A stretch of 39,266 bases of DNA from Blastocatellia bacterium (GCA_025054955.1 JANWZE010000007.1:1-39266); one strand, 5' to 3'. Counted from the first letter of the stretch, positions 3,208 through 36,217 are shown. Notes: a model not told the origin generated them from the letters alone. Program-made: numbers and translations.

Positions 3208-3218
3208 AGCATCCTCCC

Positions 3219-5128: not shown

Positions 5129-5154
5129 CGTGGTCCGGTTATGAGCCTCCATGT

Positions 5155-6486: not shown

Positions 6487-6496
6487 GGTGGCCTCC

Positions 6497-9436: not shown

Positions 9437-9760
9437 AACAATCAATTGAGCGCGGCAGTCGGACCATAAACGTATCGCTGTGGGCAGTGGCGGTGGGAAG
9501 CGCCGATGGTTGGAATTTGGTGCTGTGGTGGTAGGGTTATATCGTTTGTTTTTCGTAGTTTTTGGATCATCCAAGGCGGTGCGCCAACCATAATTTCTTC
9601 TTGACACTCATAGCGATAATATGTACACTGTCGCTTCACTTTTGCATGAGGGTTGTAGGTACGGGTCGCTGCCCTCTAACAATGTATTCGTTGAGTGGTT
9701 GGCCGTAATAGAATTATGTTAAGTCTTGTGCGCCCAGACGTGTCTATCGGCGGGTGCCCA
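9437..9760. other. Intergenic region with a possible distal promoter
   Basis: No gene is supported. TTGACA (9601-9606) and TACACT (9624-9629), 17 bases apart, form a possible distal plus-strand promoter for the cluster that begins at 9812. A shorter-range promoter lies at 9761-9788. Confidence 0.45.
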
Positions 9761-9811: not shown

Positions 9812-10804
9812 ATGCCATATTCGTATGCAAATATTCGCGCGCGGATAGTTGCCACCGGTTCACATTTACCCAGTCGTGTCATCACCAATTCAGAGATTCT
9901 TGGACTTGAAGGTTCGGATAGCTCGATTCGTAGGCTGCTTGGCGCTGTTGAGCGGCGAGGTGTAGAAGAGCACGAAGCGTGCTCGGATATTATCACAGCA
10001 GCAGCCACCCGGGTACTAGAGACGGCTGAGATTTCACCGCTGGAAATAGATCGAATTATCGTCAGCACAACGCCGGGCGATTTTGTCGAGCCCTGCACGG
10101 CCAGTGTGGTTCAGTATAAGCTGCGGGCTCGGTGCGCAGCCACAGACGTAGGCATGTCCTGTGTAGGTTGGGTTGCTGGCGTTGACTATGCGCTCCGATG
10201 TTTGGCCACAGGCGAGAAGCGTATCCTGGTGCTGGCTGGGACGATTGTGTCCAAAGGAACGGTCTTTCGTAATCCAATGCATCGAGCCATTTTTGGTGAT
10301 GGCGCTGGCGGCGTATTGCTAGAAGCCACAGACAATCCCGGCCCGAGTCAATTCTTGGCTGGGGGCTTGTGGACCGATGGACAATACTTTGATGTCATCA
10401 CGATGCCAAATCTGACGTCGGTTCATTCGCCGCGCATCCCGATGGAGTACAAGGGTAGCTTCTACATGGGACGGCGCGAAGTCATCAACGAAGCGTTGAG
10501 GAATAACCTCTCACGCTGCGTGGATGAGGTTCTGCAAACGGCAGGTGTAACCAAAGATGAGATTGATGTGGCCTTCATTCACCAACCAAGCAAGCCGCTG
10601 TTTGAAGAAGCGTTGAAAGCTGTTGGTGTGCCGCGCAGCAAGGTGATTGAAGATTACGAATTATACGGCAACACCATTTCGGCGGAACTGCCAATCTCTC
10701 TCGACGAGAATGTGCGCAACGGACGCATCAAACGTGGCGATACAATTTTGATGGTGACTTTTGGAGCTGGGTTCAGCGCCGGCATTCTGCTGTTTCGGTA
10801 TTGA
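9812..10804 (+). CDS. 3-oxoacyl-ACP synthase III-like (KASIII/thiolase fold) enzyme
   Basis: The 330-residue length and the full Cys-His-Asn triad identify a KASIII-type condensing enzyme: Cys117 in GMSCVGW, His257 in FIHQPSKP and Asn287 in YGNTISAEL. The glycine-rich FGDGAGGVLLE (161-171) and the closing FGAGFSAG are also typical. Such enzymes join an acyl-CoA to malonyl-ACP, or join two acyl chains head to head as in OleA. The cysteine context SCVGW differs from the ACSGF of housekeeping FabH, so a dedicated secondary or lipid pathway is more likely than general fatty acid synthesis. It is the first gene of a colinear cluster with glycosyltransferase, SDRs and acyltransferases. The start has a good ribosome binding site (gggagg). 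Confidence 0.85.
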   Translation: MPYSYANIRARIVATGSHLPSRVITNSEILGLEGSDSSIRRLLGAVERRGVEEHEACSDIITAAATRVLETAEISPLEIDRIIVSTTPGDFVEPCTASVVQYKLRARCAATDVGMSCVGWVAGVDYALRCLATGEKRILVLAGTIVSKGTVFRNPMHRAIFGDGAGGVLLEATDNPGPSQFLAGGLWTDGQYFDVITMPNLTSVHSPRIPMEYKGSFYMGRREVINEALRNNLSRCVDEVLQTAGVTKDEIDVAFIHQPSKPLFEEALKAVGVPRSKVIEDYELYGNTISAELPISLDENVRNGRIKRGDTILMVTFGAGFSAGILLFRY

Positions 10805-10913
10805 GATTCTGGCAAACCCGGCGGTTGGTCAGTTCAGGCGCCAGGAATTGAGAACTAGAGACGAGGCTCAGGCGCGTCGGTTTCTGGTGTTCAATTCGTG
10901 GCGTTGTTTCTTT

Positions 10914-12239
10914 ATGGGGCAGGAGCAATCATTCTCCCCTCACTTTGCGTCGTCGGCATCGAGAGTCGCCGGCGCTCTGTCGTCGCCATCTGCCCATATC
11001 CTGTTTACGCCCGCTTCAAACGTCTTGGCTCACGTGGGGCGCTGTGTTGTGTTGGCCAGGGAGCTGAAACGCCGGGGTTACAGAGTCACGCTCGCCGGCA
11101 CGCCCAAATTCCTTCAGGACCCAGCCGTGATGGCGCCGAATGAATTCGCTACCTATGGTCTCCCCGATTACGATGTTGAGGCCGGGTTAGAAGTGTTACG
11201 CAAGGTTCGTAAGCTGCCCTCTGAACGCGAGCTCAACCAACATATTCAGGCTGAATTACAGATGCTTGACCAGTTGCGACCGAACGTCGTGGTCAACGAT
11301 TTCCGTCTGACCACCTATATCTCAGCGCGACGATGTGGCATACCGGTGGTTTCGTTGGTTGGTGGGCGTTACTTGTATCAGTATGCCTCCAAGCCCTTCA
11401 AAGCGCCCCGTACACATCCATCCTATCCCTTTCTTCGATGGATCATAGGAGAAAGAGGCACAGATGCGTTGGTGCCAAATCTCCAGCGTTGGGCGCTGCG
11501 GTATAAGATGCGCCCGTTTTATCATCTCAGCAAGCGTTATGGTGTCGAGCCGAAGAAAGACCTCTGGGATTTGCTAATTGGCGAGTATAACCTCATTTTG
11601 GATACAGAGCTGCTTGGCCCGACCAAGCCATTGCCTGAGAATTTTCGTCGCGTTGGCCCGATCAATTGGACGCCACAGATACCGCTGCCTGCATGGATTC
11701 ATTCGGTTGACCGAACCAAGCCGGTGTTATATGTGACAATGGGCAGCACTGGGCATCCAGACTTGTTCCGGCATCTGATCGCCACGTTGGGGGGAGCGCC
11801 GTACACCGTGATTATGAGCACCGGTGGACAGTTTCAGGTGAGCAACCACTCGTTACCGAGTAATTTCCGTGTCGCCAAATTTGTTCCCGGTGATCAAGTG
11901 ATGGAGTTGGCCGACCTGGTTATTTTTCACGGTGGGGCTGGCACGGGCTATCAAGCGATGGTGGCAGGAAAGCCGGCTATTGTCATTGCCACGCACTTAG
12001 AACAGGAATTTGTTGGCCAAGTCTTGGAGGAGCACGGCGCGGGACTCTTCTGGACGATGAATCAAGTGACGAGAACGCCGTCGCTGATTCGCTCCTCTGT
12101 CGAGACGATATTGAACAATTTGCCTTGGTACCGCGGCAATATGGAGCGGCTGCGTCAGGATGTCCTCCAGTACAATCCAGTAGAAGTGGCGGCTGATTGT
12201 ATCGAACGCTTTGTGCTGGATCGCCAGCAGCGGAGTTAG
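10914..12239 (+). CDS. UGT/MGT-like glycosyltransferase (GT-B fold)
   Basis: The roughly 441-residue protein has the N-terminal start of a GT-B enzyme (HILFTPASNVLAHVGRCVVL) and the sugar-nucleotide signature HGGAGTGYQAMVAGKP (His339 onward). LYVTMGSTGHPDL precedes it as in macrolide and glycolipid transferases. Such enzymes move a sugar from UDP- or dTDP-sugar to a hydrophobic acceptor. The ATG at 10914 is chosen because the protein upstream of it is unlike the family, but a GTG at 10887 is possible and neither has a strong ribosome binding site. The open frame extends back to 10761, overlapping the KASIII gene. Position 110 bases after the KASIII gene suggests that the cluster's product is glycosylated. 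Confidence 0.85.
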   Translation: MGQEQSFSPHFASSASRVAGALSSPSAHILFTPASNVLAHVGRCVVLARELKRRGYRVTLAGTPKFLQDPAVMAPNEFATYGLPDYDVEAGLEVLRKVRKLPSERELNQHIQAELQMLDQLRPNVVVNDFRLTTYISARRCGIPVVSLVGGRYLYQYASKPFKAPRTHPSYPFLRWIIGERGTDALVPNLQRWALRYKMRPFYHLSKRYGVEPKKDLWDLLIGEYNLILDTELLGPTKPLPENFRRVGPINWTPQIPLPAWIHSVDRTKPVLYVTMGSTGHPDLFRHLIATLGGAPYTVIMSTGGQFQVSNHSLPSNFRVAKFVPGDQVMELADLVIFHGGAGTGYQAMVAGKPAIVIATHLEQEFVGQVLEEHGAGLFWTMNQVTRTPSLIRSSVETILNNLPWYRGNMERLRQDVLQYNPVEVAADCIERFVLDRQQRS

Positions 12240-12248
12240 GTTTTTGCT

Positions 12249-13229
12249 ATGGCGATATTGATCACTGGTGGGACGGGGCTGGTCGGCAGCCATCTAATCG
12301 AAGACCTCATCACCGGCGGCATTCCTGCCCACTCACTTCGCGCGCTCGTTCGGCCACAGCGGGATACGGCGTTTTTACGCGCCCAGGGCGTTGAACTTTG
12401 TTACGGCGACGTGACAGACCCTGACTCGCTGAAGGCCGCGCTCAGCGGTATCCAGACCGTCTTTCATTGTGCTGCTGCCGTTGATGAGAAGCGTCGTGAG
12501 CTGTTTTGGCAGGTCAACTATCAGGGCACAGTCAATCTCCTGCAAGAGGCGCAGCGCGCCGGCGTTCAGCGATTCGTCCATGTTTCAACGATTGGCGTTT
12601 ATGGTTTATTGCAAACGTCGCCGGCAACTGAAGAGCACCCCAAAAATCCACTGCGACCCTATGCCGCTGCCAAACTCGCCGCTGAAGAGAAACTCTGGCA
12701 ATACCATCAGTCCGGTCTGAACGTTGTTGTGCTGCGGCCTACTGCCATCGTTGGTGAGCGAGACCGAACCATCACTAAGCGACTGGTGCAACTGGCGCGT
12801 CGAAGAGTTGTGCCGCTGATTGGCGATGGCCGGTCGCATGTCTCATTCGTCTACGTCAAAGACTTGACCCGCGCTATGATCCTGGCCAGTCAATCGGAGC
12901 GTGCCGTAGGGCATGCCTACAATGTACAAGGGTTCACAGCGCCGATTCGCCAGGTACTGGAGTTTTTCATTGATGCTGTTGGCAGCCGGGCTAAGCTGAT
13001 TCCGATTCCTTACGCCGCAGCGTATGCTGGCGCGCTGTTGCTTGACGCTGTGTTGACGCTGACCCGCCCCAATGATCATCCCCTTCGCGCGCGGAAAGGG
13101 ATTCAGCAGTTGACCCGCGATCTGACATTCGATACAACCAAGATCAAAACCGACTTAAATTTCGAACCGCGCTACGACATGGCTCAGTCATTCGGCCCGG
13201 CCATCCGGTGGCAGTTGGAGCATGGATGA
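12249..13229 (+). CDS. NAD(P)-dependent SDR, 3-beta-HSD/epimerase-like (1)
   Basis: The 326-residue extended short-chain dehydrogenase has the nucleotide-binding motif TGGTGLVG (6-13) and the catalytic set Ser113 or Thr114, Tyr138 and Lys142 (YAAAK). VFHCAA and HVSTIGVYG are typical of the 3-beta-hydroxysteroid dehydrogenase/OleD branch. It probably reduces a keto group or oxidises a hydroxyl on the lipid or ketide product. It starts 9 bases after the glycosyltransferase and overlaps the next SDR by ATGA, so translation is probably coupled. Confidence 0.85.
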   Translation: MAILITGGTGLVGSHLIEDLITGGIPAHSLRALVRPQRDTAFLRAQGVELCYGDVTDPDSLKAALSGIQTVFHCAAAVDEKRRELFWQVNYQGTVNLLQEAQRAGVQRFVHVSTIGVYGLLQTSPATEEHPKNPLRPYAAAKLAAEEKLWQYHQSGLNVVVLRPTAIVGERDRTITKRLVQLARRRVVPLIGDGRSHVSFVYVKDLTRAMILASQSERAVGHAYNVQGFTAPIRQVLEFFIDAVGSRAKLIPIPYAAAYAGALLLDAVLTLTRPNDHPLRARKGIQQLTRDLTFDTTKIKTDLNFEPRYDMAQSFGPAIRWQLEHG

Positions 13230-14200
13230 ACATCGTTGTGACCGGCGCAAATGGCTTCATCGGCAGTTTTCTGGTTGAGGCGTTGGTCGGCCAAGGCTAT
13301 CGCGTTCGATGCTTCGTGTTACGTGGTGAACCGGTGGATGCGCTGCATGGATTGCCGGTGGAAATTGTCTACGGCGATGTGTGCTCTCGGGAGACGCTCG
13401 GCGATGCGGTGAAGGATGTTGATTACGTCTATCATCTGGCCGGGATCAAAACAGTTTGGGACGAACAGACCTATTTCCGGGTGAATTTTCAAGGGACGCG
13501 CAACGTCTTGGAGGCCGCGCGGCAAGCCAGTGCTCGGTTGAAACGGTTTGTTTATGTGAGCAGTCAGGCGGCGGCAGGTCCAAGTTGGGACGGCCATCCC
13601 CTGACGGAAGAAGAAGCCTGCCATCCGGTGACGGCCTATGGGCGGAGTAAACGCGCTGCCGAAACTTACTTGCTCAGTCAGGCTCAGCAGGTTCCCATCA
13701 CCATTGTGCGGCCCACGCTGGTCTATGGGCCACGCAATCTGGAGACGGCGATGCTTTATACGATGGTGCGATGGCGCCTGTTGCCGCTGATCCGGCGTGA
13801 ACAGTATCTGAATTTAATTCATGTTCGCGACGCAGTTCGTGGCATTCTGTTGGCTGCTCAGCATGAGCAAGCGTGTGGACAGATTTATTTCATCACCAGT
13901 GAGCAGGCCTATACGTGGCGAGAGATTGGTCAACGAGCCTTTCATCTGAGTCGCACTAGAGGGATTGTGCTGCCGGTTCCCTGGGTTGGTGTCAAAGTGG
14001 CAGCCGGTGTGATAAAGTCATACCGCCGGTTCAGAGGCCAGCCGGTCCATTTGATTGATGATAAGGTCAGAGAGCTCAGTCAACGCTACTGGGTTTGCAG
14101 TGGCCAGAAGGCTCGGCGAGAGCTGGGATTTGAGCCTCAGATTTCGCTGGACGACGGCATTCGGGAGACGCTGCAATGGTTTGAGGAACGAAGACGATGA
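13226..14200 (+). CDS. NAD(P)-dependent SDR, 3-beta-HSD/epimerase-like (2)
   Basis: The 324-residue paralogue of the preceding enzyme has TGANGFIG (6-13), VYHLAG, VSSQAAAGPS (111-120) and YGRSK (138-142). The frame could begin at 13208, but the ATG at 13226 gives the usual four-base ATGA overlap with the gene before and begins right at the first beta strand. Two consecutive SDRs suggest two redox steps on one scaffold, or one reductase and one epimerase. Its stop codon lies inside the first unit of a 71-bp duplication. Confidence 0.85.
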   Translation: MNIVVTGANGFIGSFLVEALVGQGYRVRCFVLRGEPVDALHGLPVEIVYGDVCSRETLGDAVKDVDYVYHLAGIKTVWDEQTYFRVNFQGTRNVLEAARQASARLKRFVYVSSQAAAGPSWDGHPLTEEEACHPVTAYGRSKRAAETYLLSQAQQVPITIVRPTLVYGPRNLETAMLYTMVRWRLLPLIRREQYLNLIHVRDAVRGILLAAQHEQACGQIYFITSEQAYTWREIGQRAFHLSRTRGIVLPVPWVGVKVAAGVIKSYRRFRGQPVHLIDDKVRELSQRYWVCSGQKARRELGFEPQISLDDGIRETLQWFEERRR

Positions 14201-14288
14201 AAGCGAGTTCATTGCAACTCGGCGTTCCGTTACCAAGCAGCGGCTTCTTGCGTGAGGAACGAAGACGATGAAAGTGAGTTCATTGCAA
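14182..14288. repeat. 71-bp tandem duplication at a gene junction
   Basis: The 36 bases 14182-14217 recur at 14253-14288 with a single C/T difference. The unit contains the last codons of the SDR gene and the ATG and first codons of the methyltransferase. Beyond the 36 bases the first copy still resembles the methyltransferase start (LQLGVPLPSSGFL against LQLLCCPACGGSL), so it is a decaying duplicate of a gene start. Confidence 0.85.
14197..14271 (+). CDS. 24-codon mini-ORF from a duplicated gene start
   Basis: The frame MKASSLQLGVPLPSSGFLRE plus four more residues starts in an ATGA overlap with the SDR stop (14197-14200). It ends in an ATGA overlap with the methyltransferase ATG (14268-14271). 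It copies the first eight residues of the methyltransferase except for one. It may be translated as a link that hands ribosomes from one gene to the next. It is too short and degenerate to be a zinc ribbon. Whether it is made as a peptide is unknown. Confidence 0.45.
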   Translation: MKASSLQLGVPLPSSGFLREERRR

Positions 14289-15071
14289 TTGTTATGTTGC
14301 CCAGCTTGTGGCGGCTCGTTGTCGCTCGGTGCGTCGGCGGCTCACGACCCGGTCCACAGTGGGCAGCTTGCGTGCGCCAAATGTGGGAAAAACTTTGCCA
14401 TTAAAGACGGCATCGCGCGGTTCATCAAACCGGACGAATTGGTCGGGTCCAACAAGAAGCATGAAAAACTGAACAACCTGTTTTCCTATATCTGCACGCC
14501 TGCCACACGGCTCATGTTTGCGCTGTGTGGCGGCGAGGACCGCGCGCGGGCTGAATGTCTCGACCGGCTCGATCTTCGTCCTGGCGGGCGGGTGTTGGAG
14601 ATTGGCCTTGGCACGGGCGATAACTTACCCTATCTGATCAAGCGGGTGGGCAACGCCGAGATTTTCGGGATTGATATTTCTCACAGCATGTTGGAGCACT
14701 GCGTGCGAAACCTCAGGAAGTGGCATCTGGCGGCAGAGCTTTTCCTGGCCGAAGCGGAGCACTTGCCGTTTCGCGATCATTCATTCGATTGCGTCTACCA
14801 TCTTGGCGCGATCAATTTTTTCACTGATCAGCAGCGAGCCATTGCTGAGATGATTCGCGTGGCCAAACCGGGCACCAAGGTGGTCATTGTGGACGAAAAC
14901 GAAAGAGCGCTAAGGGTGCTCGATAAATTTGCTCTCCAACTGATGATTGGCAAACGAAAAGAGGTTGTGCCGCCGATTGACTATGTGCCCAAGACAATGC
15001 AAGACATCCGGCTCGATGAGATTTGGAAAGGGTACGGCTATCTGATCGAGTTTCGCACGCCGCTCGGTTAA
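14268..15071 (+). CDS. SAM-dependent methyltransferase with N-terminal zinc ribbon
   Basis: The 267-residue protein has two CxxC pairs (Cys11/Cys14 and Cys36/Cys39) forming a Trm112-like zinc ribbon. A class I methyltransferase core follows, with motif I VLEIGLGTG (109-117), the acidic end of strand 2 in GIDIS (about 135-139) and LPFRDHSFDCVYHLG (166-180). This architecture is common in small-molecule methyltransferases of the UbiE/type 11 group. The start ATG lies in the second copy of a 71-bp duplication. It is followed after 6 bases by the acyltransferase-fold gene. It probably methylates the product of the cluster. Confidence 0.85.
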   Translation: MKVSSLQLLCCPACGGSLSLGASAAHDPVHSGQLACAKCGKNFAIKDGIARFIKPDELVGSNKKHEKLNNLFSYICTPATRLMFALCGGEDRARAECLDRLDLRPGGRVLEIGLGTGDNLPYLIKRVGNAEIFGIDISHSMLEHCVRNLRKWHLAAELFLAEAEHLPFRDHSFDCVYHLGAINFFTDQQRAIAEMIRVAKPGTKVVIVDENERALRVLDKFALQLMIGKRKEVVPPIDYVPKTMQDIRLDEIWKGYGYLIEFRTPLG

Positions 15072-15077
15072 CATCTC

Positions 15078-15965
15078 ATGATGAGAGAAAAAGGTGACCA
15101 AATCATCCGCGCTGAGTATAGCCAACGGGTGTTGATGGACGTGTTGGAGGCCGCGCGCCGACCCGATAGCCACGCTGTGGTCATGGTTGACCTGTCGGCA
15201 GCCGAAGCGTTCCGACGACGGTATAAGGAGGCCCACGGCATTTCGTTGACGACTGTTCATCTTTTGATCAAGGCATTGGCGTTGATGATTGAAGAAAATC
15301 CCTGGATGAATTACATGGTGGATGGCTACAAAATCATCAAGCCGTCCACGATTGATATTGGCGTGTCAGCGGCAGCCGAAGAAGGCGTCACGCCGGTCGT
15401 GGTGATCCGCGAAGCCAATAGGAAATCGCTTCGAGAGATTAGCGAGGAACTGAAGGCCAAAGCCGCCGAGGCTGTTCAATTAGAGAAGCAAAATCTGGAA
15501 AGGTTGAATCGTCTGGGCCGGCTGATTCCAGTTGGATGTCTGCGTCGGCCATTGATCCGATTTGTGGCGCGACGGTATTGGGTGCGCCGCCGACTGATTG
15601 GCACGGCGCAAATCACAAGTCTGGGATTCAAAGACCTCGCCTTTCATCTGCCCACTCACATGGGCACAACCATGTTGTTGAGTGTGGGCGGTGTGACGCG
15701 CCGGCCTGTGGTCGTCGGTGATAAGATCGAGATTCGTCCGACCGCCTATCTGGCATTTCAGGTAGACACGCGCGTGTTGAACGCGAAGAAGGCGCTGCGC
15801 GCGTTTCGTCGCTTCCGCCAGTGGCTTGAATCGCCGGAAGCGTTGGACGTTGCTGAGCGAGCGGTGAACCAGCAGGCCGCGACCACAGCGCGATGCGCTC
15901 AGACCGAAGATGAAACGGCAGTGGGGCTAGAACACGACATGGAACATTCGTCGTCAACCTCCTGA
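15078..15965 (+). CDS. Stand-alone E2-type acyltransferase fold with altered active site
   Basis: The 295-residue protein matches the catalytic domain of 2-oxo acid dehydrogenase E2 chains (CAT fold): SLTTVHLLIKALALMIEENP (56-75), DIGVSAAAEEGVTPVVV (93-109), LIGTAQITSLG (173-183) and the closing strand-helix. It has no lipoyl or peripheral-subunit-binding domain. The usual active-site text D-H-R-x-x-D-G is D-T-R-V-L-N-A here (230-236), so the catalytic histidine and the aspartate are both missing. It may bind an acyl-thioester without classical transfer, act as a scaffold, or use other residues. A basic insert lies at about 141-172. It is 6 bases after the methyltransferase gene and probably cotranscribed. 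Confidence 0.8.
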   Translation: MMREKGDQIIRAEYSQRVLMDVLEAARRPDSHAVVMVDLSAAEAFRRRYKEAHGISLTTVHLLIKALALMIEENPWMNYMVDGYKIIKPSTIDIGVSAAAEEGVTPVVVIREANRKSLREISEELKAKAAEAVQLEKQNLERLNRLGRLIPVGCLRRPLIRFVARRYWVRRRLIGTAQITSLGFKDLAFHLPTHMGTTMLLSVGGVTRRPVVVGDKIEIRPTAYLAFQVDTRVLNAKKALRAFRRFRQWLESPEALDVAERAVNQQAATTARCAQTEDETAVGLEHDMEHSSSTS

Positions 15966-16097
15966 GGCAGGGCCGAAAGCGCCTCTGCTTCGTTCGCACG
16001 GCTGGCGCGTGAGACCGGCTCGATCGGGGTCAATCAATAGCAGCGTTGTTTGATGTTCCTGCTGATAAAGTCATAACAGCTCGCTGAGCAGAGAGAC
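15966..16097. other. Gap inside the biosynthetic cluster
   Basis: The 132-base gap holds a small hairpin (gaggc and gcctc arms near 15963-15984) without a T run. A weak promoter before the acyltransferase pair is possible but not convincing. Confidence 0.3.
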
Positions 16098-17474
16098 ATG
16101 CATCAGACATCATCCGTCAAGCGATTCCCGTTTGTTATCACCGACAAAGTCGTTTATGCCGTTGATGGCGTATCCAAATTCATGCTTCACGTGGTGATGG
16201 ACCTTGAAGGTTCGTTGCAACCGACGTTGCTGGCGCAAGCGGTCGAGTTGACGCTACGCCAAACGCCGATTTTGCGCAGTGTAGCTCGGCTGCGCGTGTT
16301 TGCCTCCTATTGGGAGGCGCAAGATGGCATAGCGCGTGAGTCACAGTTGCAGGTGGTTGATGTCTCTCACGAGCCTGAGCCTGAACAGGCCGCACACTCG
16401 GTGATGGAATCGTACATCAATGATTATATTGACATCACCCGGACGCTGCCCATGCGATTCCTGCTCATTCAGCTCGGCCCGCAGCGGTGGTGGTTCGTTG
16501 CCAAAGTGCACCATGCGTTGATGGACCCGCTGGCCATCACGTATGTCGTCCAGGACATTCAAATGTTTTACCAACGACTCCTCAATGGAGAATCTGTTGT
16601 TGTATCGCCTGAGCCGCTGGCGGATCGAGGCCGCTGGCCAGTGCTGAAAAGCGTGCCAGTGTCGCTCTGGCTACGCGTGATGGGCGTTGGATGGTCGCGC
16701 CTGCGTCGCCACCGGCGTGAGGGGAGAAAGGGGCGGCGGTTGCACGTCAATTTCTCGGCGCCCGCGCTCCACTCGGACACGATTGCCTATCGCACGCTGC
16801 GATGGAGCGGCCCAGCATATCTGACCGCGCGGGCACGCGCCAAATCTCTCGGCGTGACATTCAATGATCTGGTGATCGCCGCTCTGTTGCAGGCTGTTCA
16901 TAAATGGAATGGCGGCGGCTCCAATGCAAATGATTTTTACACGATCGTCATGCCGGTTGACATGAGGCGATACGTGCGCGCGCAAGGGCGTATGCCGCGC
17001 ATTCTGTCCAATTATGTAGGCGGCACGCTGATCACCGTCTCGGTCGGACAGCTCACCACGTTCGAGGAAACAGCGCGACACATTGCGCGGGAAACGGAAT
17101 TCATTCGTCAGCATCATGTCGGATTGCGGCACAACCTGCTACTGCCGTTCTTGCTGATTGCGCCGCCACAATGGCTGCGACGCACCGTGCAGCGGATTCA
17201 TGCTCGTCATCCAGAGCGGCTGGCGCCGACCGCCATCGTAGCCTATATGGGCAAACTAGAACGGCTGTTTGCGCCGTTCCCAGGTTGTCAGATCAGAGGC
17301 ATTGAAGGCATAGGGACAGGATTCTATCCGGTCGGCTTTGATGTCTCGGTGTTCGCCTACGGCAAGGAATATGTGGCGACGCTGACCTATCGCAAAGGCG
17401 CGTGCACTGAGCAAGAGATGGACCGATTCATCAGCCTATTTTGGCAAGAAGTCATCAGCGAGGAACGCGGATGA
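16098..17474 (+). CDS. Condensation/wax-synthase-like acyltransferase (1)
   Basis: The 458-residue protein has the acyltransferase motif HHxxxD at 138-143 (HHALMD) in the setting VAKVHHALMDPL. This motif is used by NRPS condensation domains, PapA5-type enzymes and WS/DGAT enzymes. The glycine that usually follows Asp is Pro144. The C-terminal half has TIVMPVDMRRY and LSNYVGGTLI, a region like the D-F-G-W floor loop and solvent channel of the family. It probably esterifies a hydroxyl or sugar of the cluster's product using an acyl thioester. It overlaps its paralogue by ATGA. Confidence 0.75.
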   Translation: MHQTSSVKRFPFVITDKVVYAVDGVSKFMLHVVMDLEGSLQPTLLAQAVELTLRQTPILRSVARLRVFASYWEAQDGIARESQLQVVDVSHEPEPEQAAHSVMESYINDYIDITRTLPMRFLLIQLGPQRWWFVAKVHHALMDPLAITYVVQDIQMFYQRLLNGESVVVSPEPLADRGRWPVLKSVPVSLWLRVMGVGWSRLRRHRREGRKGRRLHVNFSAPALHSDTIAYRTLRWSGPAYLTARARAKSLGVTFNDLVIAALLQAVHKWNGGGSNANDFYTIVMPVDMRRYVRAQGRMPRILSNYVGGTLITVSVGQLTTFEETARHIARETEFIRQHHVGLRHNLLLPFLLIAPPQWLRRTVQRIHARHPERLAPTAIVAYMGKLERLFAPFPGCQIRGIEGIGTGFYPVGFDVSVFAYGKEYVATLTYRKGACTEQEMDRFISLFWQEVISEERG

Positions 17475-18943
17475 GCGCACAGCTTCGGTTGCCGTTTATC
17501 ACCAGCGACAAGATCATCTATGCGATGGATGGCGTGTTCACGTACATGCTCCATGCCGTTTTGGAGTTGACCGGTCGGTTGGATGAATCGTTGCTTGAGC
17601 GCGCCATTGAGTACGCACTGGTCAAGTCGCCGATTCTGAAAAGCGTTGCGCGACTCAAACCGCTGGGGTCCTATTGGGAGGTGGTAGATGATCTGACACC
17701 GTATGCGATATTGACGGTCAACGACCTCTCGTCCGATCCTGAAGCTGACACGAGTGTGGCGGCCTTATTGCAGGCTTACATCAACGAAGCAATTGACATC
17801 ACAGCGTCGCCGCCAACGCGATTCTTACTCATCCAGTTGCCGGACAACCGATGCGTGTTTGTGATGAAAGTTCATCATTGCGCCGTTGATCCGGCAGGCA
17901 TGTTGCATTGTCTGGATGACATTCAGACAGCCTACCGGCACTTGCTCAACGGGGAGGCGTTGCCGCCCGTGAGTCCAATGCCGTCGCGCAGTCGGCGCCA
18001 ATTGTTCCGCCATGTCTCTCCACTGTTGTGGCTGCGGGTGATTGGGCGTGCGGCAATCAGCCTCGTTCGGCGGCAAAAGTCGCAGCCGCGCGGGTTTGTT
18101 CAGTTTGACGACGCAGCAAAAAGCTATCGTCAAAGCAATCACTGCCGGACATCACAGCCGCATGGATTTGCTCAGTTTGACGGCGGGCGTTCGAGCTGCA
18201 CTGTTGCTTATCGCACGGTTCAGTTCAAAGGGCGCGATTACACGAAGTTTCGCGCTCGCTGCAAATCGTTTGGTGTGACGGCGAACGAACTGGTCATGGC
18301 GGCGCTCTGTTGTGCGATCCGTCGTTGGAATGGCCAGCGGGAGCGCCCTGACGCTGTTTATTCGATTGTCATGCCGGTTGATTTGCGGTGGTATCTTCGC
18401 CAGGGAGGACAGGTGCCGCGGATCATGGCCAACTTCATTGGCGGAAGCTGGATTTCGGTTCCGGCAGCCTACGTGACCACATTTGAGGAGACCATTCAAT
18501 ACATCGCTCGTCAGACGCGATTCATCAAGGACGGTCACATGGGCTTGCTGGCCAATTTAGGCATGCCGGTGGTGAAACTGCTGCCGCCACGCTGGTTGCG
18601 ACGAGCGGCTCAGCGGATGTATCAACGGCATCCGCAACGGATGGTGCCGACAGCCGTGTTCGCCTACCTGGGCAAAGTTGAGCGGATCATGACGACGTTT
18701 CCAGGTTGTCAGCTCACGGGCATTGCCGGCGTTGGCGCTGGTTTTGATCCGGTTGGACTGGATGTGGTCGTCGTCAATTTTGATCACGTTTTTTCTGTCA
18801 CCGTGACATACTTGAGAGATGTCTGCCCCGATGCTCAAATGGACCGGTTCATGATGCTCTTGACCGACCAGATTCTGGGTAATGAAGAGCAGCAGCACGC
18901 CGGAGCGCCTCATGACGAGCGAACAATTAGCACTTCCCGGTAA
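17471..18943 (+). CDS. Condensation/wax-synthase-like acyltransferase (2)
   Basis: The 490-residue paralogue of the preceding enzyme has HHCAVDP at 135-141 and shares YSIVMPVDLRWYL, the PTAVFAYLGKVER stretch and FPGCQLTGIAGVGAGFDPVG. The ATG at 17471 gives a four-base overlap with the gene before; a longer frame from 17441 is not needed. It carries a 24-residue in-frame tandem duplication (SQPRGFVQFD from residue 204, SQPHGFAQFD from 228), missing in the paralogue, in the linker between the two halves. Two acyltransferases suggest two acyl chains added to one scaffold. It is the last gene of the cluster. Confidence 0.75.
   Translation: MSAQLRLPFITSDKIIYAMDGVFTYMLHAVLELTGRLDESLLERAIEYALVKSPILKSVARLKPLGSYWEVVDDLTPYAILTVNDLSSDPEADTSVAALLQAYINEAIDITASPPTRFLLIQLPDNRCVFVMKVHHCAVDPAGMLHCLDDIQTAYRHLLNGEALPPVSPMPSRSRRQLFRHVSPLLWLRVIGRAAISLVRRQKSQPRGFVQFDDAAKSYRQSNHCRTSQPHGFAQFDGGRSSCTVAYRTVQFKGRDYTKFRARCKSFGVTANELVMAALCCAIRRWNGQRERPDAVYSIVMPVDLRWYLRQGGQVPRIMANFIGGSWISVPAAYVTTFEETIQYIARQTRFIKDGHMGLLANLGMPVVKLLPPRWLRRAAQRMYQRHPQRMVPTAVFAYLGKVERIMTTFPGCQLTGIAGVGAGFDPVGLDVVVVNFDHVFSVTVTYLRDVCPDAQMDRFMMLLTDQILGNEEQQHAGAPHDERTISTSR
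18080..18185. repeat. 72-bp in-frame duplication inside an acyltransferase gene
   Basis: The stretch from cagccg at 18083 recurs from 18155. About 27 of the first 31 bases match, with differences mostly at synonymous or conservative positions. The result is a 24-residue insertion compared with the paralogous gene upstream. Confidence 0.75.
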
Positions 18944-22509: not shown

Positions 22510-23325
22510 ATGGCTATGCTGAACGAGAGCAAACAAACCTGGAGAATGGTGTTCAAAGATATTTTCGCTTCCTCCGATGAGGTTCCTCCTGCGGGTGATT
22601 CGTCGGTCAGCTCTGTATGGGACGATGATTCATCTGATCCTGTTGTGGTTGATTCATTCGTTAGCTCTGCATGGGATGACGGCTCATTTGAATTTCATCT
22701 GAATGACATGAGCGCCGACCTGCCTGCTGCCAATGAAGCAGGTGAGCGTGTAGGGGGTGTGTCGCCGTGGATGGAAATGGCGAGCGCCGACCTGCCTGCA
22801 GCCGATCAAGCGGATGAAGAGTGGCAAGCAGCGTGCGCCATCGGCGCTGACCATCACGCAGTCGCCCTCACTGAGGCTGAGGCGGTGACTCTCTGGCAAT
22901 CTATCTGCCAGCGCATCGCCCAGCGCGGCACAGCAACGGAAGTAACCCATGCCGTTCGTCAAAATCGGTTCAAGCCGGCCTCTTGGCCGTTGGCGCTGGC
23001 TGCGACGTTGTTGGTTGGCATGGCGCTGCCGACGTTTGGCTGGTTCTCCTATCGTCAGATAGTTGGTTCGGTTGGGATGCCGTCGGCATTGAACCACCAC
23101 GCCAGTGGCGCTGGACCTCCGGCTGCCGCGCCTGTTGAGCCGATTGCCACAGGCGAGCCGCCGGCGCGTGCGGTGGTTGTTCGTCGCGCGTCGAAGGCGC
23201 CATCAGCGATGGAGAAAAATGAGCCTCTCGGATTGCTCATGGCAACCTACAAATCGGATAGTCACCGATCGTCCGTCTCGGCTGAACTGGTGACGGCCCG
23301 CTACCAAGGGAGTGGATGGCGATGA
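22510..23325 (+). CDS. Single-pass membrane protein, probable anti-sigma partner
   Basis: The 271-residue protein has an acidic cytoplasmic-type N-terminal part (about 1-115), a helix region (VTLWQSICQRIAQRG) and one transmembrane segment (LALAATLLVGMALPTFGWF, about 157-175). A low-complexity outer part follows. It holds two in-frame tandem duplications: 18 codons (SSVWDDD and SSAWDDG) and 24 codons (SADLPAANEA and SADLPAADQA). No zinc-binding anti-sigma motif (HxxxCxxC) is visible. Anti-sigma function is inferred from position between a sigma factor and a TPR gene, and from the single membrane helix. Confidence 0.55.
   Translation: MAMLNESKQTWRMVFKDIFASSDEVPPAGDSSVSSVWDDDSSDPVVVDSFVSSAWDDGSFEFHLNDMSADLPAANEAGERVGGVSPWMEMASADLPAADQADEEWQAACAIGADHHAVALTEAEAVTLWQSICQRIAQRGTATEVTHAVRQNRFKPASWPLALAATLLVGMALPTFGWFSYRQIVGSVGMPSALNHHASGAGPPAAAPVEPIATGEPPARAVVVRRASKAPSAMEKNEPLGLLMATYKSDSHRSSVSAELVTARYQGSGWR
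22606..22810. repeat. Two in-frame tandem duplications (54 bp and 72 bp)
   Basis: The stretch gtcagctctgtatggga at 22606 recurs at 22660 (54-base offset). The stretch agcgccgacctgcctgc at 22711 recurs at 22783 (72-base offset). Both offsets keep the frame and expand the acidic N-terminal part of the membrane protein. Confidence 0.75.
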
Positions 23326-24782: not shown

Positions 24783-26489
24783 ATGACGGGAAAAGTGTAC
24801 GTCATTGGCCTGGATGGTGGAACGTTTGATTTGCTCAGGCCCTGGATCGAGGCTGGCACGCTCCCTGCATTGAACGCTCTGATGCGCGATGGTGTCAGCG
24901 GCGAGTTGACATCCGTGGTTCCACCGGTCACAGGTCCGGCCTGGACTTCGTTCATCACCGGCAAGAATCCGGGCAAGCACGGCGTCTATGAGTTCAAACT
25001 GATGGATCGCAGCACCTATCAGTATCACGTCATTGATCCGCAGTCACGACGTGGGCCAAGCATCTGGGACATCCTCGGCCAACATGGCGGACGCAGCGTC
25101 GTGCTGAATCTGCCGATCACGTATCCGCCAGAGAAAATCAACGGTGTTATGGTCAGTGGATTCATGACGCCGTCAGGACGGCGCGACTATGTTCATCCGC
25201 TGGAGATGCTCGATGAGCTTGAAAACGCCTTCGGCCCTTACGCCCTGTATCCGCCGTTGCCGGTGTTTGCCCTGACTGGAGCCGAAGCCGATGTTGAGCA
25301 ATTCCTGAAAGGGCTGATTGAGCAGTTGGACTATCATTTTCAAGTGGCCGCCTATTTGGCTGAGAAGATTGATCCTCAGTTCCTGTTGCTGCACGTGCAT
25401 GGCGCTGACTTGATCGGCCACTGGTTATGGCATCTGGTGGATGAAGCGAATCCCCGGTACGATCGGGCGCTGGCTGAGAAATACAGCGGGACCGTCTTGG
25501 CCTACTTTCGGCGCTTTGATGAACATGTTGGCCAATTGATCAAGCGCGCGGGACCGGAAGCCAATCTCTTCATCATCTCCGATCACGGCAGTGGATCGGT
25601 TCATACGGCCATTGATCTGAATAACTGGCTGCTGGAACAGGGCTACTTGAAGTTAAAAGAGACCGCCGCCACTAAGCTCAAATACCAGATGTGGAAGATG
25701 GGATTTTCCATTGAGGCTTTGTTAAACAGGAAATGGCTACTGGCCAGAGTGGGAAAGATGGCCAAAAAGATGTTGCAAGCGAGCAACGGCAGTCCGCTTG
25801 ATCCGATGAGAAAAGGCGCAGGCCGCGTGGCGCGATTGCGCCTGACCTATCATGATGTAGATTGGTCGCGCACGAAAGCATTTTGCTATGCCAACATCTT
25901 TGGCCAGATGATCATCAATGTCAAAGGTCTCTGGTCGCAAGGTTGCGTCGCGCCCGGCCAAGAGTATTATGCCGTTCGTGATGAGATTGCCCGCAAGCTG
26001 GCCGACATGCGTGATCCTATGAGCGGGCAGTCCATCAGGGGACAGGTCTTTCTCAAAGAGGACGTCTACAAGGGCGCGTATATGGATGATGCGCCAGACA
26101 TCACGTTTGTGCCGCTGCAACAGGGCTACTTGGCAGGCGGGTATCGCTTCATCTCCAACAGGGTGTGCTTCCCGGTGCCGTTGATGAGCGGGTTTCACCG
26201 AATGAATGGCATGCTGCTCGGCGCAGGACCGGCGCTGCGCGTCGGCGCCTCTGTCAGCGGCGCGCGGCTCATTGATCTGTGCCCGACGATGTTGTATCTG
26301 ATGGGGCTGCCGATTCCCGATGATGTTGATGGCGAAGTCCTATCAGAAATCGTGGCCGAATCGTTCCTCAAACAGAACGCCGTGAGATTTGCCGACAGCG
26401 CCAAGACGGGCGCCGCTGCCAAGACACACTTAACGGCGGAAGAAGAAGCCGACATTATCAGCCGACTCCAAGGATTGGGCTACTTGTAA
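24783..26489 (+). CDS. AP-superfamily hydrolase or transferase, COG3379 type (1)
   Basis: The 568-residue protein has no signal peptide. The alkaline-phosphatase-fold motifs are VYVIGLDGGTFD (metal ligand Asp11), PPVTGPAWTSFITGKNPGKH (Thr50 is the likely nucleophile by analogy with nucleotide pyrophosphatases), HGADLIGHWLWH (second metal-site Asp and His), SDHGSG and GFHRMNGM. The ATG at 24783 follows gagga at 9 bases; an upstream TTG at 24759 is less likely. It ends in LQGLGYL, a tail shared with two paralogues downstream. Members of this group are predicted phosphohydrolases or phosphomutases; the true substrate here is unknown, but nearby glycosyltransferases suggest a phosphorylated lipid or sugar. 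Confidence 0.85.
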   Translation: MTGKVYVIGLDGGTFDLLRPWIEAGTLPALNALMRDGVSGELTSVVPPVTGPAWTSFITGKNPGKHGVYEFKLMDRSTYQYHVIDPQSRRGPSIWDILGQHGGRSVVLNLPITYPPEKINGVMVSGFMTPSGRRDYVHPLEMLDELENAFGPYALYPPLPVFALTGAEADVEQFLKGLIEQLDYHFQVAAYLAEKIDPQFLLLHVHGADLIGHWLWHLVDEANPRYDRALAEKYSGTVLAYFRRFDEHVGQLIKRAGPEANLFIISDHGSGSVHTAIDLNNWLLEQGYLKLKETAATKLKYQMWKMGFSIEALLNRKWLLARVGKMAKKMLQASNGSPLDPMRKGAGRVARLRLTYHDVDWSRTKAFCYANIFGQMIINVKGLWSQGCVAPGQEYYAVRDEIARKLADMRDPMSGQSIRGQVFLKEDVYKGAYMDDAPDITFVPLQQGYLAGGYRFISNRVCFPVPLMSGFHRMNGMLLGAGPALRVGASVSGARLIDLCPTMLYLMGLPIPDDVDGEVLSEIVAESFLKQNAVRFADSAKTGAAAKTHLTAEEEADIISRLQGLGYL

Positions 26490-27919: not shown

Positions 27920-28018
27920 AGATCATCTGAATTGGCGGCATAATCGCCTCACCTGATATTTCACGTGACAAGGCTGAAAAAGCGCGGTGGATATGCTAGG
28001 CTTGCTCGGCCAACAGAC

Positions 28019-29206
28019 ATGCTGTCGGTCATCGTCGTCAATTTGAGCATCATATTGGCGTTCCGGCTCTGGTTTCTCTTCTTGAGCTGGTTCACGGTCA
28101 GAGCCTTTTCGCACACCGACCGGCTGCGTGGGGAGCCGGACTCGCCACACACCGTGACGGTGCTGATTCCTGCTCGCAATGAACAGGAGAACATCCGTGC
28201 CTGCCTTGAGGCAGTCTTGCAACAGGATTATCCCATCCTGGAGATCATCGTCATTGACGACGCTTCAACTGATCAAACCGGCGCTATTGTCGAGCAGATG
28301 CAGCAGCGCCACCAGCTCATTCAACTGGTGAAAAACAACGGACCGCTGCCAGGATGGTTGGGCAAAAACTATGCGCTCTATCGTGGCGCGCAGCAGGCTC
28401 GTGGAGACTACCTGCTATTTCTCGATGCTGACGTGCGCCTCTCGCCTGATTGTCTGCGCACGGCCATGCATTATGCGCTGAAGTATGATGCCGATATGCT
28501 GACGATCTTCCCCGTCGTCATCTGTGTCGGCTTCTGGGAAAAGGTCATCATGCCGATTTATGGTGAGATTTTCTTGTGGTCGCTCATTCCGTTGGTTCAG
28601 CCGTTCAAGCGATTGCGCGCGCATCATCCGAGCAAGCCGGTGGCATTCGGCGGATTTCTCTTATTCAAAAAGCAGACCTACGATTGCATCGGCGGCCATG
28701 AGCGAGTGAAAAGCTCAATTATCGAGGACGTAGAGTTGGCGCGGGTCGTCAAACGCAGTGGATACCGATTGAACACACTGTTGGGTGGGCCGCGCTTGCT
28801 CACAGCGCGGATGTACCAACATCTCGGTCACCTGTGGGAAGGTATCAGCAAGTCCATCAGCGGCCTGACAGTGTGGCAATTGTTATTAGGCATCTACGTA
28901 TGTTTCAGCGTCTTTGTATTGCCATGGCTGGCGCTGCCGCTTGTGCTGTTTGATGGATTCCTCAGCGAATGGTCTACCATGAGCGTATGGGCGCTGGCGC
29001 TCAGCGCATTAACCTGCTTGGTTGCGCTCGTGAGTCGGTGGCACCTGGCCAAAGCCGCCAGCATGGATGGTTCGTATGCTTATTTGCAACCATTGGGTGG
29101 GCTTGTGTTGATGGCCATGTTCCTGGAGACGACATGGCGTGTGCTCTCCGGCAAAGGGGCGACGTGGAAAGGCCGGCGCGTTTCATTGGACGCGCCCAGC
29201 GGTTGA
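28019..29206 (+). CDS. Membrane GT2 glycosyltransferase (CrtQ/HpnB-like)
   Basis: The roughly 395-residue protein begins with a membrane helix (LSVIVVNLSIILAFRLWFLF). The GT2 core has VTVLIPARNEQENI, VIDDAST, the metal-binding LFLDADVRL and the IIEDVELARVVKRSGYRL acceptor-loop region. A segment TARMYQHLGHLWEGISKS and three C-terminal membrane helices (near 290-310, 325-345 and 360-380) match the branch that glycosylates carotenoid or hopanoid-type lipids. A GTG start at 27965 is possible. Neither start has a clear ribosome binding site. It probably transfers a sugar to a membrane lipid. Confidence 0.8.
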   Translation: MLSVIVVNLSIILAFRLWFLFLSWFTVRAFSHTDRLRGEPDSPHTVTVLIPARNEQENIRACLEAVLQQDYPILEIIVIDDASTDQTGAIVEQMQQRHQLIQLVKNNGPLPGWLGKNYALYRGAQQARGDYLLFLDADVRLSPDCLRTAMHYALKYDADMLTIFPVVICVGFWEKVIMPIYGEIFLWSLIPLVQPFKRLRAHHPSKPVAFGGFLLFKKQTYDCIGGHERVKSSIIEDVELARVVKRSGYRLNTLLGGPRLLTARMYQHLGHLWEGISKSISGLTVWQLLLGIYVCFSVFVLPWLALPLVLFDGFLSEWSTMSVWALALSALTCLVALVSRWHLAKAASMDGSYAYLQPLGGLVLMAMFLETTWRVLSGKGATWKGRRVSLDAPSG

Positions 29207-30604: not shown

Positions 30605-30677
30605 CGATTCACGCAATAGGCGAAGAAGCTAAAAGTGCAAAGCAGCTCCAGAAGCTGTGGTGCGTGGGAGAATAGTC

Positions 30678-31541
30678 ATGAAAAAAATGGTGAGCATAGT
30701 GATACTGATGACGGCGTTTGTGTGGGCGTCAGTTGCCGCGCTGCAATCGGCGCCCAAAGTGTTGCTGATTGTGTGGGACGGTTCTGAATATTCGGTCGTT
30801 GAGCCGATGTTCCGAAATGGTCAGTTACCCAACCTGGGGCGGATCGCGCCGACTGTGCATCGGTTGCTGGCGGATAAAACGTGCGAGACGGGCCCGCAAG
30901 AGTGCGAGTGCATTACGACTGAGACTAAACCGCAGTTTGCCATCATGCTAACCGGCTTGTTGGCTGACGCCACCGGTGTGGTGACCAATCGTTGCTTCCG
31001 GACGATTCCTGCTGGCATGACCGTGCCAGAAAAACTGGAAGCGCGCGACGCAACCATTCGCACGGCTCACATCAGCGGCAAATCGGAGAATCCGGGCACC
31101 AAAGTGTTTCAAAATTTGTCCCGGACTGTGGATTATTACCTGGCTGAGCCGTTGGACTCGGAGCAAACGGCTGATCAGGCCATCGGCCGAATCACACAGT
31201 GGGCTGGCAACAGTTTCTTCATTATGCTCCATTTTCGTGAGCCTGACAGGACCGGTCACCTCAGAGGCGTCAACAGTATTGACTATCAGATGCGGTTGCT
31301 GGAAGTAGACCGCCAAACAGGGCGCATTTTGGATGCGCTCGCGGCTCGCGGGATTTTGAATCAGACAATCATCTATGTAATCTCTGATCATGGCTTCGGC
31401 GTGCCTGGCGGGCCGGTGGCGACCCGACCATTCCTGCACACCAACAGTCCCAATGCCATTTTTGCCTCGAATGATCCCGCTGGCGGCGAGGGCGTGCGCA
31501 TGCGCGACATTGCTTCCCTGGTGTTGGCCCACTGGCAGTAG
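30678..31541 (+). CDS. Small exported AP-superfamily (phosphodiesterase-like) protein
   Basis: The 287-residue protein starts with a signal peptide (MVSIVILMTAFVWASVAA, about 4-21). The motifs VLLIVWDGSEY (metal Asp), TETKPQFAIMLTG (likely nucleophile Thr), HFREPDRTGH (Asp and His ligands), VISDHGFG and FLHTNSP are those of type I phosphodiesterases. It is half the size of its cytoplasmic relatives at 24783, 33117 and 36183, and it is the only exported one. A ggag site precedes the ATG by 7 bases. A signal peptide and closeness to the propeller gene suggest that both work in the periplasm. Confidence 0.85.
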   Translation: MKKMVSIVILMTAFVWASVAALQSAPKVLLIVWDGSEYSVVEPMFRNGQLPNLGRIAPTVHRLLADKTCETGPQECECITTETKPQFAIMLTGLLADATGVVTNRCFRTIPAGMTVPEKLEARDATIRTAHISGKSENPGTKVFQNLSRTVDYYLAEPLDSEQTADQAIGRITQWAGNSFFIMLHFREPDRTGHLRGVNSIDYQMRLLEVDRQTGRILDALAARGILNQTIIYVISDHGFGVPGGPVATRPFLHTNSPNAIFASNDPAGGEGVRMRDIASLVLAHWQ

Positions 31542-31563
31542 CGCGACGGTGATAGGATTTCGC

Positions 31564-32289
31564 ATGACAGACAAGAGCGAGCCGCCGGCCGAGGAACATC
31601 CGTATACCCTCATCGCCGTGCAACTGGCGCTCATCATGCTCGCCGTGCCGACCGTGCGCTACGTGTTTCGTCACGGCTACATCACCCAGGCAGACATTGA
31701 GCATTTCATCGCTCAGTTTGGCTCATGGGCAGCGCCCGGTTTCGTCATGCTGCTGGCAGCCGGTTTGTTGGTGTTTGTGCCGCCGGCGATTTTGGTCGGC
31801 ACCGGTTCGCTCATCTTTGGCAGCGAGCGGGGCGCAGTTTACTCACTGCTCGGTGTGAGCCTCGGTGTCTGCGCCGCCTTTTTGCTGGGGCGGCATCTGT
31901 TGGCCGATTTTGCTCGCCGGCGCAAACAGGGACGACTCAAACAGATCAATCAATGGCTCACGATGAACGGGACGGCATTCACGTTCGTCTCGCGGCTGAT
32001 GTTTTTTGCCAATCCCACCTTCAACTATGCCTCCAGTTTAACGGCGATTCGATTTCGCGATTATGCTATCGGCAGCGTCTTGGGCGTTATTCCCGGCGTG
32101 TTGATCTTTTCTCATCTGTTTCGCGTCATCATCTTCACGCGGTCGCCCTTGGATATTTTGCGACATCCGGCCTTCCTTTCCATGTTGGGTTTGCGACTAT
32201 GCGGCGTAGCGCTGTTCAAGGGGCTGACCATCTGGTATGGCCGCCGAAAGCTGAATGAAACCACTGCGAGCGAAGAGGTGTTGTTATGA
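31564..32289 (+). CDS. TVP38/TMEM64 (VTT/DedA-like) membrane protein
   Basis: The 241-residue protein has about five hydrophobic segments (for example LIAVQLALIMLAVPTVRYVF, FVMLLAAGLLVFVPPAILVG, YSLLGVSLGVCAAFLLG). The family core (PPAILVGTGSLIFG, LLGRHLL, FANPTFNYASSLTAIRFRDY) is present. VTT proteins are linked to moving lipids between membrane leaflets. The ATG at 31564 is used because the upstream frame overlaps the previous gene and is unlike the family. It overlaps the next glycosyltransferase gene by ATGA. Its place beside a glycosyltransferase suggests that it flips or supports a lipid carrier. Confidence 0.85.
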   Translation: MTDKSEPPAEEHPYTLIAVQLALIMLAVPTVRYVFRHGYITQADIEHFIAQFGSWAAPGFVMLLAAGLLVFVPPAILVGTGSLIFGSERGAVYSLLGVSLGVCAAFLLGRHLLADFARRRKQGRLKQINQWLTMNGTAFTFVSRLMFFANPTFNYASSLTAIRFRDYAIGSVLGVIPGVLIFSHLFRVIIFTRSPLDILRHPAFLSMLGLRLCGVALFKGLTIWYGRRKLNETTASEEVLL

Positions 32290-33050
32290 CGGATGTTGAA
32301 ACGGCCGGTCAGCCGCCCACGATCACTGTGGTGATACCGGCGTATAACGAAGAGAAATATATCGGAGCGACGATTGAAAACGTCAAAGCCGCTATCCGCG
32401 AGTATCACCGCGTCTATCCTGACGAGGTAGAAATTTTGGTAGTCAACAATAACTCCACCGACCGCACTGAAGAAGTCGCGCGGGCGCATGGCGCGCGCGT
32501 CGTGTTTGAAGGCAAGAATCAGATTGCGGCGTCGCGCAATGCTGGTGGCCGCGCCGCGCGTGGCCGGATTGTCGCCTTTCTGGATGCGGATGATCACATC
32601 TCGCCGAACATGCTCATCCTGGTTCACCAAGCGATGATGTCAGGCGAGTATATCGGCGGCGGTGTCGCGCGCATCTACCGGGACAAGCCGATCAAGATGG
32701 CCGAGTGGTTAGAAAAAATCAACAACCTCGGACGGCGCATCACCGGCGTCAGCACTGGCTTGATTTACACAACCAAAGAGGCCTTCCAGCAAGTCGGCGG
32801 CTACGACGAACGCTACTATGCTGCCGAAGAAGGCCGCTTCATTCTGGATTTGAAAAAGCTCGGCAAACAGCAGGGTAAAAAATTCCGCAACATCACCGAA
32901 GGGTATGTGATCAAGTCAGCGCGTAAGTTCGAGAAGCTCACGCCTCTGGAACTGATCTGGACGGGATTGAAGTTTGTGCTCTTTCCCTGGAAGTTGAAGG
33001 ATCGAAAGGAATGCTCGTTTTGGTACGATCAGGTGGACCAGAAAAAGTGA
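32286..33050 (+). CDS. GT2 family glycosyltransferase
   Basis: The 254-residue soluble enzyme has ITVVIPAYNEEKYIGATIEN, VVNNNSTD, the DxD-type motif AFLDADDHIS and the acceptor region VGGYDERYYAAEEGRFILDL. It belongs to the broad A-fold GT2 group that uses nucleotide sugars. It overlaps the VTT gene by ATGA, so both are probably made together and supply the same membrane substrate. The C-terminal part (ELIWTGLKFVLFPWKLK) may lie on the membrane. Confidence 0.85.
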   Translation: MTDVETAGQPPTITVVIPAYNEEKYIGATIENVKAAIREYHRVYPDEVEILVVNNNSTDRTEEVARAHGARVVFEGKNQIAASRNAGGRAARGRIVAFLDADDHISPNMLILVHQAMMSGEYIGGGVARIYRDKPIKMAEWLEKINNLGRRITGVSTGLIYTTKEAFQQVGGYDERYYAAEEGRFILDLKKLGKQQGKKFRNITEGYVIKSARKFEKLTPLELIWTGLKFVLFPWKLKDRKECSFWYDQVDQKK

Positions 33051-36109: not shown

Positions 36110-36217
36110 TTATGAACCAGAAAGTCATCCTCACTGGATTGGATGGCATACGCAAATCACAGCCTCCTGCGCAAAACGTCTCATGAACCAGAAAGTCATC
36201 ATCATTGGATTGGACGG
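36110..36217. repeat. 71-bp-offset duplication of a gene start
   Basis: Positions 36112-36146 recur at 36183-36217 with about four differences, starting exactly at the ATG. The remaining part of the first unit does not match, so only the first 35 or so bases of the gene start are duplicated, or the rest has decayed. Confidence 0.8.
36112..36186 (+). CDS. 24-codon mini-ORF from a duplicated gene start
   Basis: The frame begins MNQKVILTGLDG and ends after 24 codons in TGA at 36184-36186, overlapping the true ATG (36183) as ATGA. Its first residues copy those of the following AP-superfamily gene (MNQKVIIIGLDG). Length and geometry equal those of the mini-ORF at 14197-14271. It may couple translation to the next gene or be a harmless scar. 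Confidence 0.45.
   Translation: MNQKVILTGLDGIRKSQPPAQNVS

Follow-up and report, generated by a model that had tools for sequence, protein, structure and literature searches.

A colinear gene set for a candidate glycosylated lipid or short ketide-lipid pathway in a Blastocatellia bacterium

Gene content of the locus

The stretch analysed here (the window) comprises 39,266 nt of a Blastocatellia bacterium genome (GCA_025054955.1 JANWZE010000007.1:1-39266). The feature under study, at 9812-18943, contains eight genes on the (+) strand: a KASIII-like ketosynthase (KAS3), a glycosyltransferase (GT), two short-chain dehydrogenases/reductases (SDR1, SDR2), a methyltransferase (MT), a protein with the fold of 2-oxoacid dehydrogenase E2 subunits (E2-like) and two HHxxxD acyltransferases (AT1, AT2). 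An earlier sequence-only reading had named these eight families as a colinear candidate lipid or ketide cluster, and all eight were confirmed by the Pfam and NCBIfam profile searches used to assign window proteins to families (Table 1). In line with the reading, no polyketide synthase (PKS) or non-ribosomal peptide synthetase megasynthase was found among the window genes scanned. Among PDB entries, YjiC and CalG are relatives of GT, and alignment of SDR1 shows a Gly-rich motif and YxxxK.

The proposed tight packing of the genes holds in part. ATGA overlaps occur at SDR1/SDR2 and AT1/AT2, given internal ATGs at 13226 and 17471, and the GT/SDR1 and MT/E2-like gaps are below 10 bp, but wider gaps lie between KAS3 and GT (about 110 bp, taking GT from ATG 10914), SDR2 and MT (67 bp) and E2-like and AT1 (132 bp). 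The GT reading frame is open from TTG 10761, and an alignment of starts makes the ATG likelier. The promoter match upstream of KAS3 is considered weak because promoter-like and terminator-like sites in the region are no commoner than in shuffled sequence.

Table 1. Positions and assignments of genes and other features (window coordinates unless a locus is named; ORF, open reading frame)
Feature	Position	Strand	Assignment
Sigma-70-like promoter match	9601..9629	+	TTGACA-17-TACACT; consensus scan; 183 bp upstream of KAS3; weak
KAS3	9812..10804	+	KASIII-like ketosynthase, 330 aa; PF08541/PF08545, ACP_syn_III_C 1e-25
GT	10914..12239	+	GT-B glycosyltransferase, macrolide/EryCIII type; PF06722, EryCIII-like_C 4e-18
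SDR1	12249..13229	+	extended SDR; PF01370 Epimerase 1e-48
SDR2	13226..14200	+	extended SDR; alternative start GTG 13208; PF01370 Epimerase 1e-40
MT	14268..15071	+	class I methyltransferase, N-terminal Trm112-like zinc ribbon; PF13649 (Methyltransf_25) 6e-22, PF03966 (Trm112p) 1.5e-5
E2-like	15078..15965	+	E2 catalytic-domain fold without lipoyl domain; PF00198 (2-oxoacid_dh) 1e-23
AT1	16098..17474	+	HHxxxD acyltransferase (Condensation/PapA/WS-DGAT superfamily); PF00668 3e-17; HHALMD
AT2	17471..18943	+	second HHxxxD acyltransferase; PF00668 2e-18, TIGR02946 3e-17; HHCAVD
PDE1	24783..26489 (ORF from TTG 24759)	+	alkaline phosphatase superfamily phosphodiesterase; PF01663 4e-44
GT2a	27965..29206	+	membrane-type family 2 glycosyltransferase; HpnB-like, below cut-off
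PDE2	30657..31541	+	short phosphodiesterase-like protein, likely signal peptide (by eye); PF01663 1e-16
VTT	31390..32289	+	DedA-type membrane protein; PF09335 8e-15
GT2b	32286..33050	+	family 2 glycosyltransferase; identity 73% L007, 67% L096
PDE3	33117..34889	+	phosphodiesterase; PF01663 1e-43; identity 67-68% to L006/L007
PDE4	36183..37895	+	phosphodiesterase; PF01663 3e-41; identity 61-62% to L006/L007
Repeat-spacer-repeat, window	14182-14288, 22710-22811, 36112-36214
Repeat-spacer-repeat, own genome elsewhere	L140:2159, L156:5691, L166:3801 and 12260, L141:3278, L145:4662
Repeat-spacer-repeat, genome G297	L104:461, 18285

Catalytic motifs of KAS3 and the E2-like protein

Alignment places the KAS3 triad at Cys117-His257-Asn287, invariant in six orthologues. 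The Cys-His-Asn triad is shared with FabH, whereas KAS3 scores under the NCBIfam cut-offs (202 bits vs 249 and 178 vs 292). Another KASIII is present elsewhere in the genome, in an apparent fab operon judged by gene sizes. A second ketosynthase locus lies on G000:C50 (L067:6784-10370), where tandem KASIII-like genes precede two proteins of about 245 aa; G310 and G311 (L074-L077) also have the KASIII pair plus at least one such protein.

The E2-like protein shares fold and family with the E2 catalytic domains of pyruvate and 2-oxoglutarate dehydrogenases, from which it differs in having no lipoyl domain, in an extra Arg-rich insertion and in its active-site motif. Where E2 enzymes have DHRxxDG, the window protein and its counterparts at loci L006 and L007 have DTRVLNA, replacing the catalytic His and Asp; the motif is intact in distant relatives, as DHRVLDG in L096 and DHRMVDG in L095. 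The top Foldseek matches were E2 domains, obtained with a low-confidence model (mean pLDDT 53), so that they support an E2-like fold but not an active site. The ratio of nonsynonymous to synonymous substitution rates (dN/dS) between L006 and L007 is 0.106 for this protein, among the most constrained of the set, which argues that it has a function. Judged from its residues, the E2-like protein is probably a non-catalytic partner, because the catalytic His and Asp are lost, and classical acyl transfer appears unlikely.

Conservation, extent and distribution of the gene set

Loci L006 and L007 belong to two genomes (G298 and G297, respectively) of the family of the window genome (f1). Both retain the order GT-SDR1-SDR2-MT-E2-AT, with protein identities of 57-79% from GT to the E2-like protein and 43-45% for AT. 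Both contigs begin within the 3' end of a KAS3 orthologue, the remainder of which is missing from both assemblies; the C-terminal end is 'LPISLDENVRNGRIRRGQTILMVTFGAGFSGGILAFRY' in L007 and 'LPISLDENVRNGRIKRGDTILMVTFGAGFSAGILLFRY' in the window. With this partial KAS3 counted, the full KAS3-GT-SDR1-SDR2-MT-E2-AT order is kept, and synteny has not been lost in all relatives, the outcome that the sequence-only reading had set against its own proposal. Because the arrangement recurs in L006 and L007, the gene set is an evolutionarily conserved unit, with an order beyond chance. Across eight genes, dN/dS between the two loci is 0.09-0.23, indicating purifying selection. The HHxxxD motif is also kept in both, in a single acyltransferase where the window has two, so the suggestion of a product acylated twice does not describe a conserved trait.

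After AT, both loci continue with PDE3-like, PDE4-like, VTT and another phosphodiesterase gene, and L007 also has GT2b. In the more distant L096, a run of GT2b (67%), phosphodiesterase (60%), phosphodiesterase (55%), VTT and phosphodiesterase has an E2-like protein and a GT alongside. As the set continues into these families in all three loci, the 9812-18943 boundary is too narrow; the unit does not end at 18943, as first proposed, and extends into the GT2, phosphodiesterase and VTT genes at 24.8-37.9 kb. Residues D34, T73, D232, H236, D290, H291 and H494 are invariant in an alignment of ten proteins including PDE1, PDE3 and PDE4, and agree with the nucleophile and metal ligands expected in the alkaline phosphatase superfamily. 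The structure model of PDE3 matches NPP/ENPP-type phosphodiesterases, and inspection by eye found no signal peptide in PDE1, PDE3 or PDE4. Of the two nearest relatives, one is on record as Acidobacteria and the other as Blastocatellia, which puts the window genome in the Acidobacteria. The gene after AT2 matches an NCBIfam acidobacterial VWA model, and VWA, OmpA-like, sigma and TPR genes lie between AT2 and PDE1, a block that is not in L006 or L007.

More distant versions of the locus exchange parts yet retain the overall kit. Five genomes from a different family in the same order (f82) have KAS3 (74-76% identity) adjoining GT (48-51%) and a GT2; in the sole Pfam-annotated one, methyltransferase, sulfotransferase and GT4 genes come next. 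No E2-like homologue was matched in these five genomes. Locus L008, from a Lac Pavin metagenome-assembled genome, reads GT-PDE-PDE-E2, followed by an Rv2949c-like chorismate lyase and an AMP ligase. The L096 genome, which came from a search around L008, and L105 also have two KASIII-type proteins, a hexapeptide protein, an AMP ligase, SDRs and a methyltransferase. L095 combines two FabF-type ketosynthases, an acyl carrier protein (ACP), AcpS, two E2-like proteins, a thioester-reductase-type SDR, a phosphodiesterase and two glycosyltransferases, and in L035 an E2-like protein adjoins GT, two GT2 and a hexapeptide-type protein. The recurrence of ketosynthases, ACP and AMP ligases among these variants is the main argument for a lipid or ketide chain.

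A further four loci (L126, L127, L129 and L131) have GT homologues whose neighbours include nitroreductase-like, ThiF and FeeM-type N-acyl amino acid synthase genes (by Pfam for L126 and L129). L126 and L127 add an E2-fold protein, and L129 adds an exosortase and PEP-CTERM protein. They are another lipid-related setting for the E2-GT pair.

Within the class, a search of 162 genomes found orthologues of the E2-like protein in 3, which all belong to one family, plus one additional weak match; among 395 genomes around L008, 3 gave strong matches. The E2 query also returned L009-L016, which were set aside as ordinary dehydrogenase E2 subunits, being longer proteins partly beside E1- and E3-like genes. 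A search for KAS3 orthologues at E 1e-60 in 297 genomes of the phylum matched only the window itself; beyond the window this KAS3 type turned up only in f82 and, in fragmentary form, in f1. This patchy distribution fits a mobile or often-lost accessory pathway.

Dispersed, single repeat-spacer-repeat structures were also seen, in which a direct repeat of 30-39 nt, differing per site, flanks a unique spacer of 27-42 nt (Table 1). In 625 kb of the window's own genome, start-to-start spacing peaks at 70-79 (19 pairs, including 2 that belong to a true CRISPR array), compared with 0-5 pairs in each other 10-base bin from 60 to 400; the f82 loci and most other loci have almost no such structures. 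Several of the repeats measure 37 nt, as does the repeat of a CRISPR array that lies next to cas1 on C92. One possible reading is ectopic spacer integration by Cas1-Cas2 ('neo-CRISPR'), and an assembly artefact or a templated short duplication could also account for the structures. The one at 14182-14288, whose spacer (14218-14252) occurs once in the genome, duplicates the SDR2 stop and MT start, and its first copy shows an ATGA overlap. SDR2 and MT were probably joined by that overlap originally, and the insertion accounts for the 67 bp that now separate them.

Two further observations concern neighbouring genes. A nucleotidyltransferase-domain protein is encoded at 26641-27207 (-), inside the PDE1-GT2a gap and on the opposite strand, and two adjacent DUF1800-DUF1501 gene pairs lie at 529-8059 (-), beside an Ig-like domain protein.

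A proposed pathway and its alternatives

On balance, and with moderate confidence, we favour a dedicated pathway for a glycosylated, acylated and possibly phospho-modified lipid or short ketide-lipid of envelope type. Starting from the observed gene content, order, conservation and motif states, and taking enzyme families as the guide to the reactions, their order and the product, KAS3 would carry out a single decarboxylative Claisen condensation between an acyl primer and malonyl-ACP, the latter supplied by primary metabolism. SDR1 and SDR2 would reduce or epimerise the condensation product or its sugar, MT would methylate the product, GT would transfer a sugar from a nucleotide sugar, and AT1 and AT2 would attach acyl groups to free hydroxyls as esters. 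The E2-like protein may act as a non-catalytic or re-purposed partner, descended from an acyltransferase with the motif that is intact in distant relatives. The downstream GT2, phosphodiesterase and VTT genes may serve in head-group extension, phospho-modification and help with membrane crossing. The sequence-only reading had likewise envisaged condensation, reduction, methylation, glycosylation and acylation; the families are capable of these steps, the KAS3 triad is kept and the kit recurs with ACP, AcpS, ketosynthases and AMP ligases, but the E2-fold protein has no catalytic His or Asp to contribute.

Several points weigh against this proposal. Genes for an ACP, an AMP ligase and a thioesterase were not found in the window, and SDR1 and SDR2 could instead use nucleotide sugars. 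The intervening VWA/OmpA/sigma/TPR block weakens the case for joint regulation with the downstream part. No member of the set has been biochemically characterised.

An unlikely alternative, although the most substantial of those considered, is that the locus mainly makes a surface polysaccharide or polyprenyl-linked glycan, with KAS3, the E2-like protein and the acyltransferases providing acyl decorations rather than a lipid aglycone. The two GT2 enzymes, phosphodiesterases and VTT protein downstream would suit such a role, as would the composition of L035 and the exosortase and PEP-CTERM genes near the GT homologues of L129. However, the window genes tested yielded no polymerase, flippase or chain-length regulator, and the recurrent ketosynthase, ACP, AcpS and AMP ligase genes of the variants point away from it. 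A purely tailoring cluster, with KAS3 as a CerJ-type O-acyltransferase acting on a sugar to form an ester, seems improbable to us. CerJ and ChlB3 likewise have a KASIII fold and glycosyltransferase genes alongside, and KAS3 adjoins GT in every cluster that contains it. Their triad is Cys-His-Asp (PMC9573744), and the Cys-His-Asn retained by KAS3 and its orthologues makes CerJ-type chemistry less likely.

Mycobacterial phthiocerol and phenolic glycolipid loci include PapA5, Rv2952, Rv2962c and Rv2949c, and resemble the window in combining an HHxxxD acyltransferase, a methyltransferase, a GT-B glycosyltransferase and a reductase. A phenolic-glycolipid-type pathway with a 4-hydroxybenzoate primer, as in mycobacteria, is suggested by the chorismate lyase (Rv2949c-like, PF01947) and AMP ligase of L008. 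We nonetheless regard it as very improbable here, as PF01947 was not found in the window's own genome (99.5% complete) and no type I PKS among the window genes scanned; the window has a single KASIII in its place, with the E2-like protein, alkaline phosphatase-superfamily phosphodiesterases and VTT as additions. Hopanoid decoration can hardly be the function: HpnA and HpnB are the best NCBIfam matches of SDR1, SDR2 and GT2a, but all score far under cut-offs, and the idea was dropped when squalene-hopene cyclase (TIGR01507) was not found in the own genome. Two other systems offer partial parallels to the favoured glycolipid or ketide-lipid pathway. The OleABCD long-chain olefin pathway likewise pairs a thiolase-superfamily condensing enzyme with an OleD-like SDR, but SDR1 reaches 127 bits against an OleD cut-off of 580, and neither OleB nor OleC was identified among the window genes tested. 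The cyanobacterial heterocyte glycolipid (hgl) island also builds an aglycone and then glycosylates it, in that case with PKS genes (PMC11804610).

Every enzyme comes from a familiar family, while the product structure is unreported; our literature searches, which covered few subscription papers, found no description of this gene set. A broader idea, which we put forward only tentatively and hold to be rather doubtful, is an undescribed glycolipid class in several bacterial lineages, whose constant core (GT1, E2-fold protein, phosphodiesterases and GT2b) is combined with ketosynthase modules that can be exchanged; an E2-type acyltransferase would have been taken into this core and have turned non-catalytic in the acidobacterial branch. 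Should the favoured pathway make what it seems to make, it would add a lipid class to a phylum with little-known envelope chemistry, and would show that one KASIII, in place of a PKS, can prime glycolipid synthesis. An E2 fold drawn into such a route, with its catalytic residues lost later, would provide a clear case to study. The core of E2-like, GT, PDE and GT2b genes is a usable genomic marker for locating cultivable producers.

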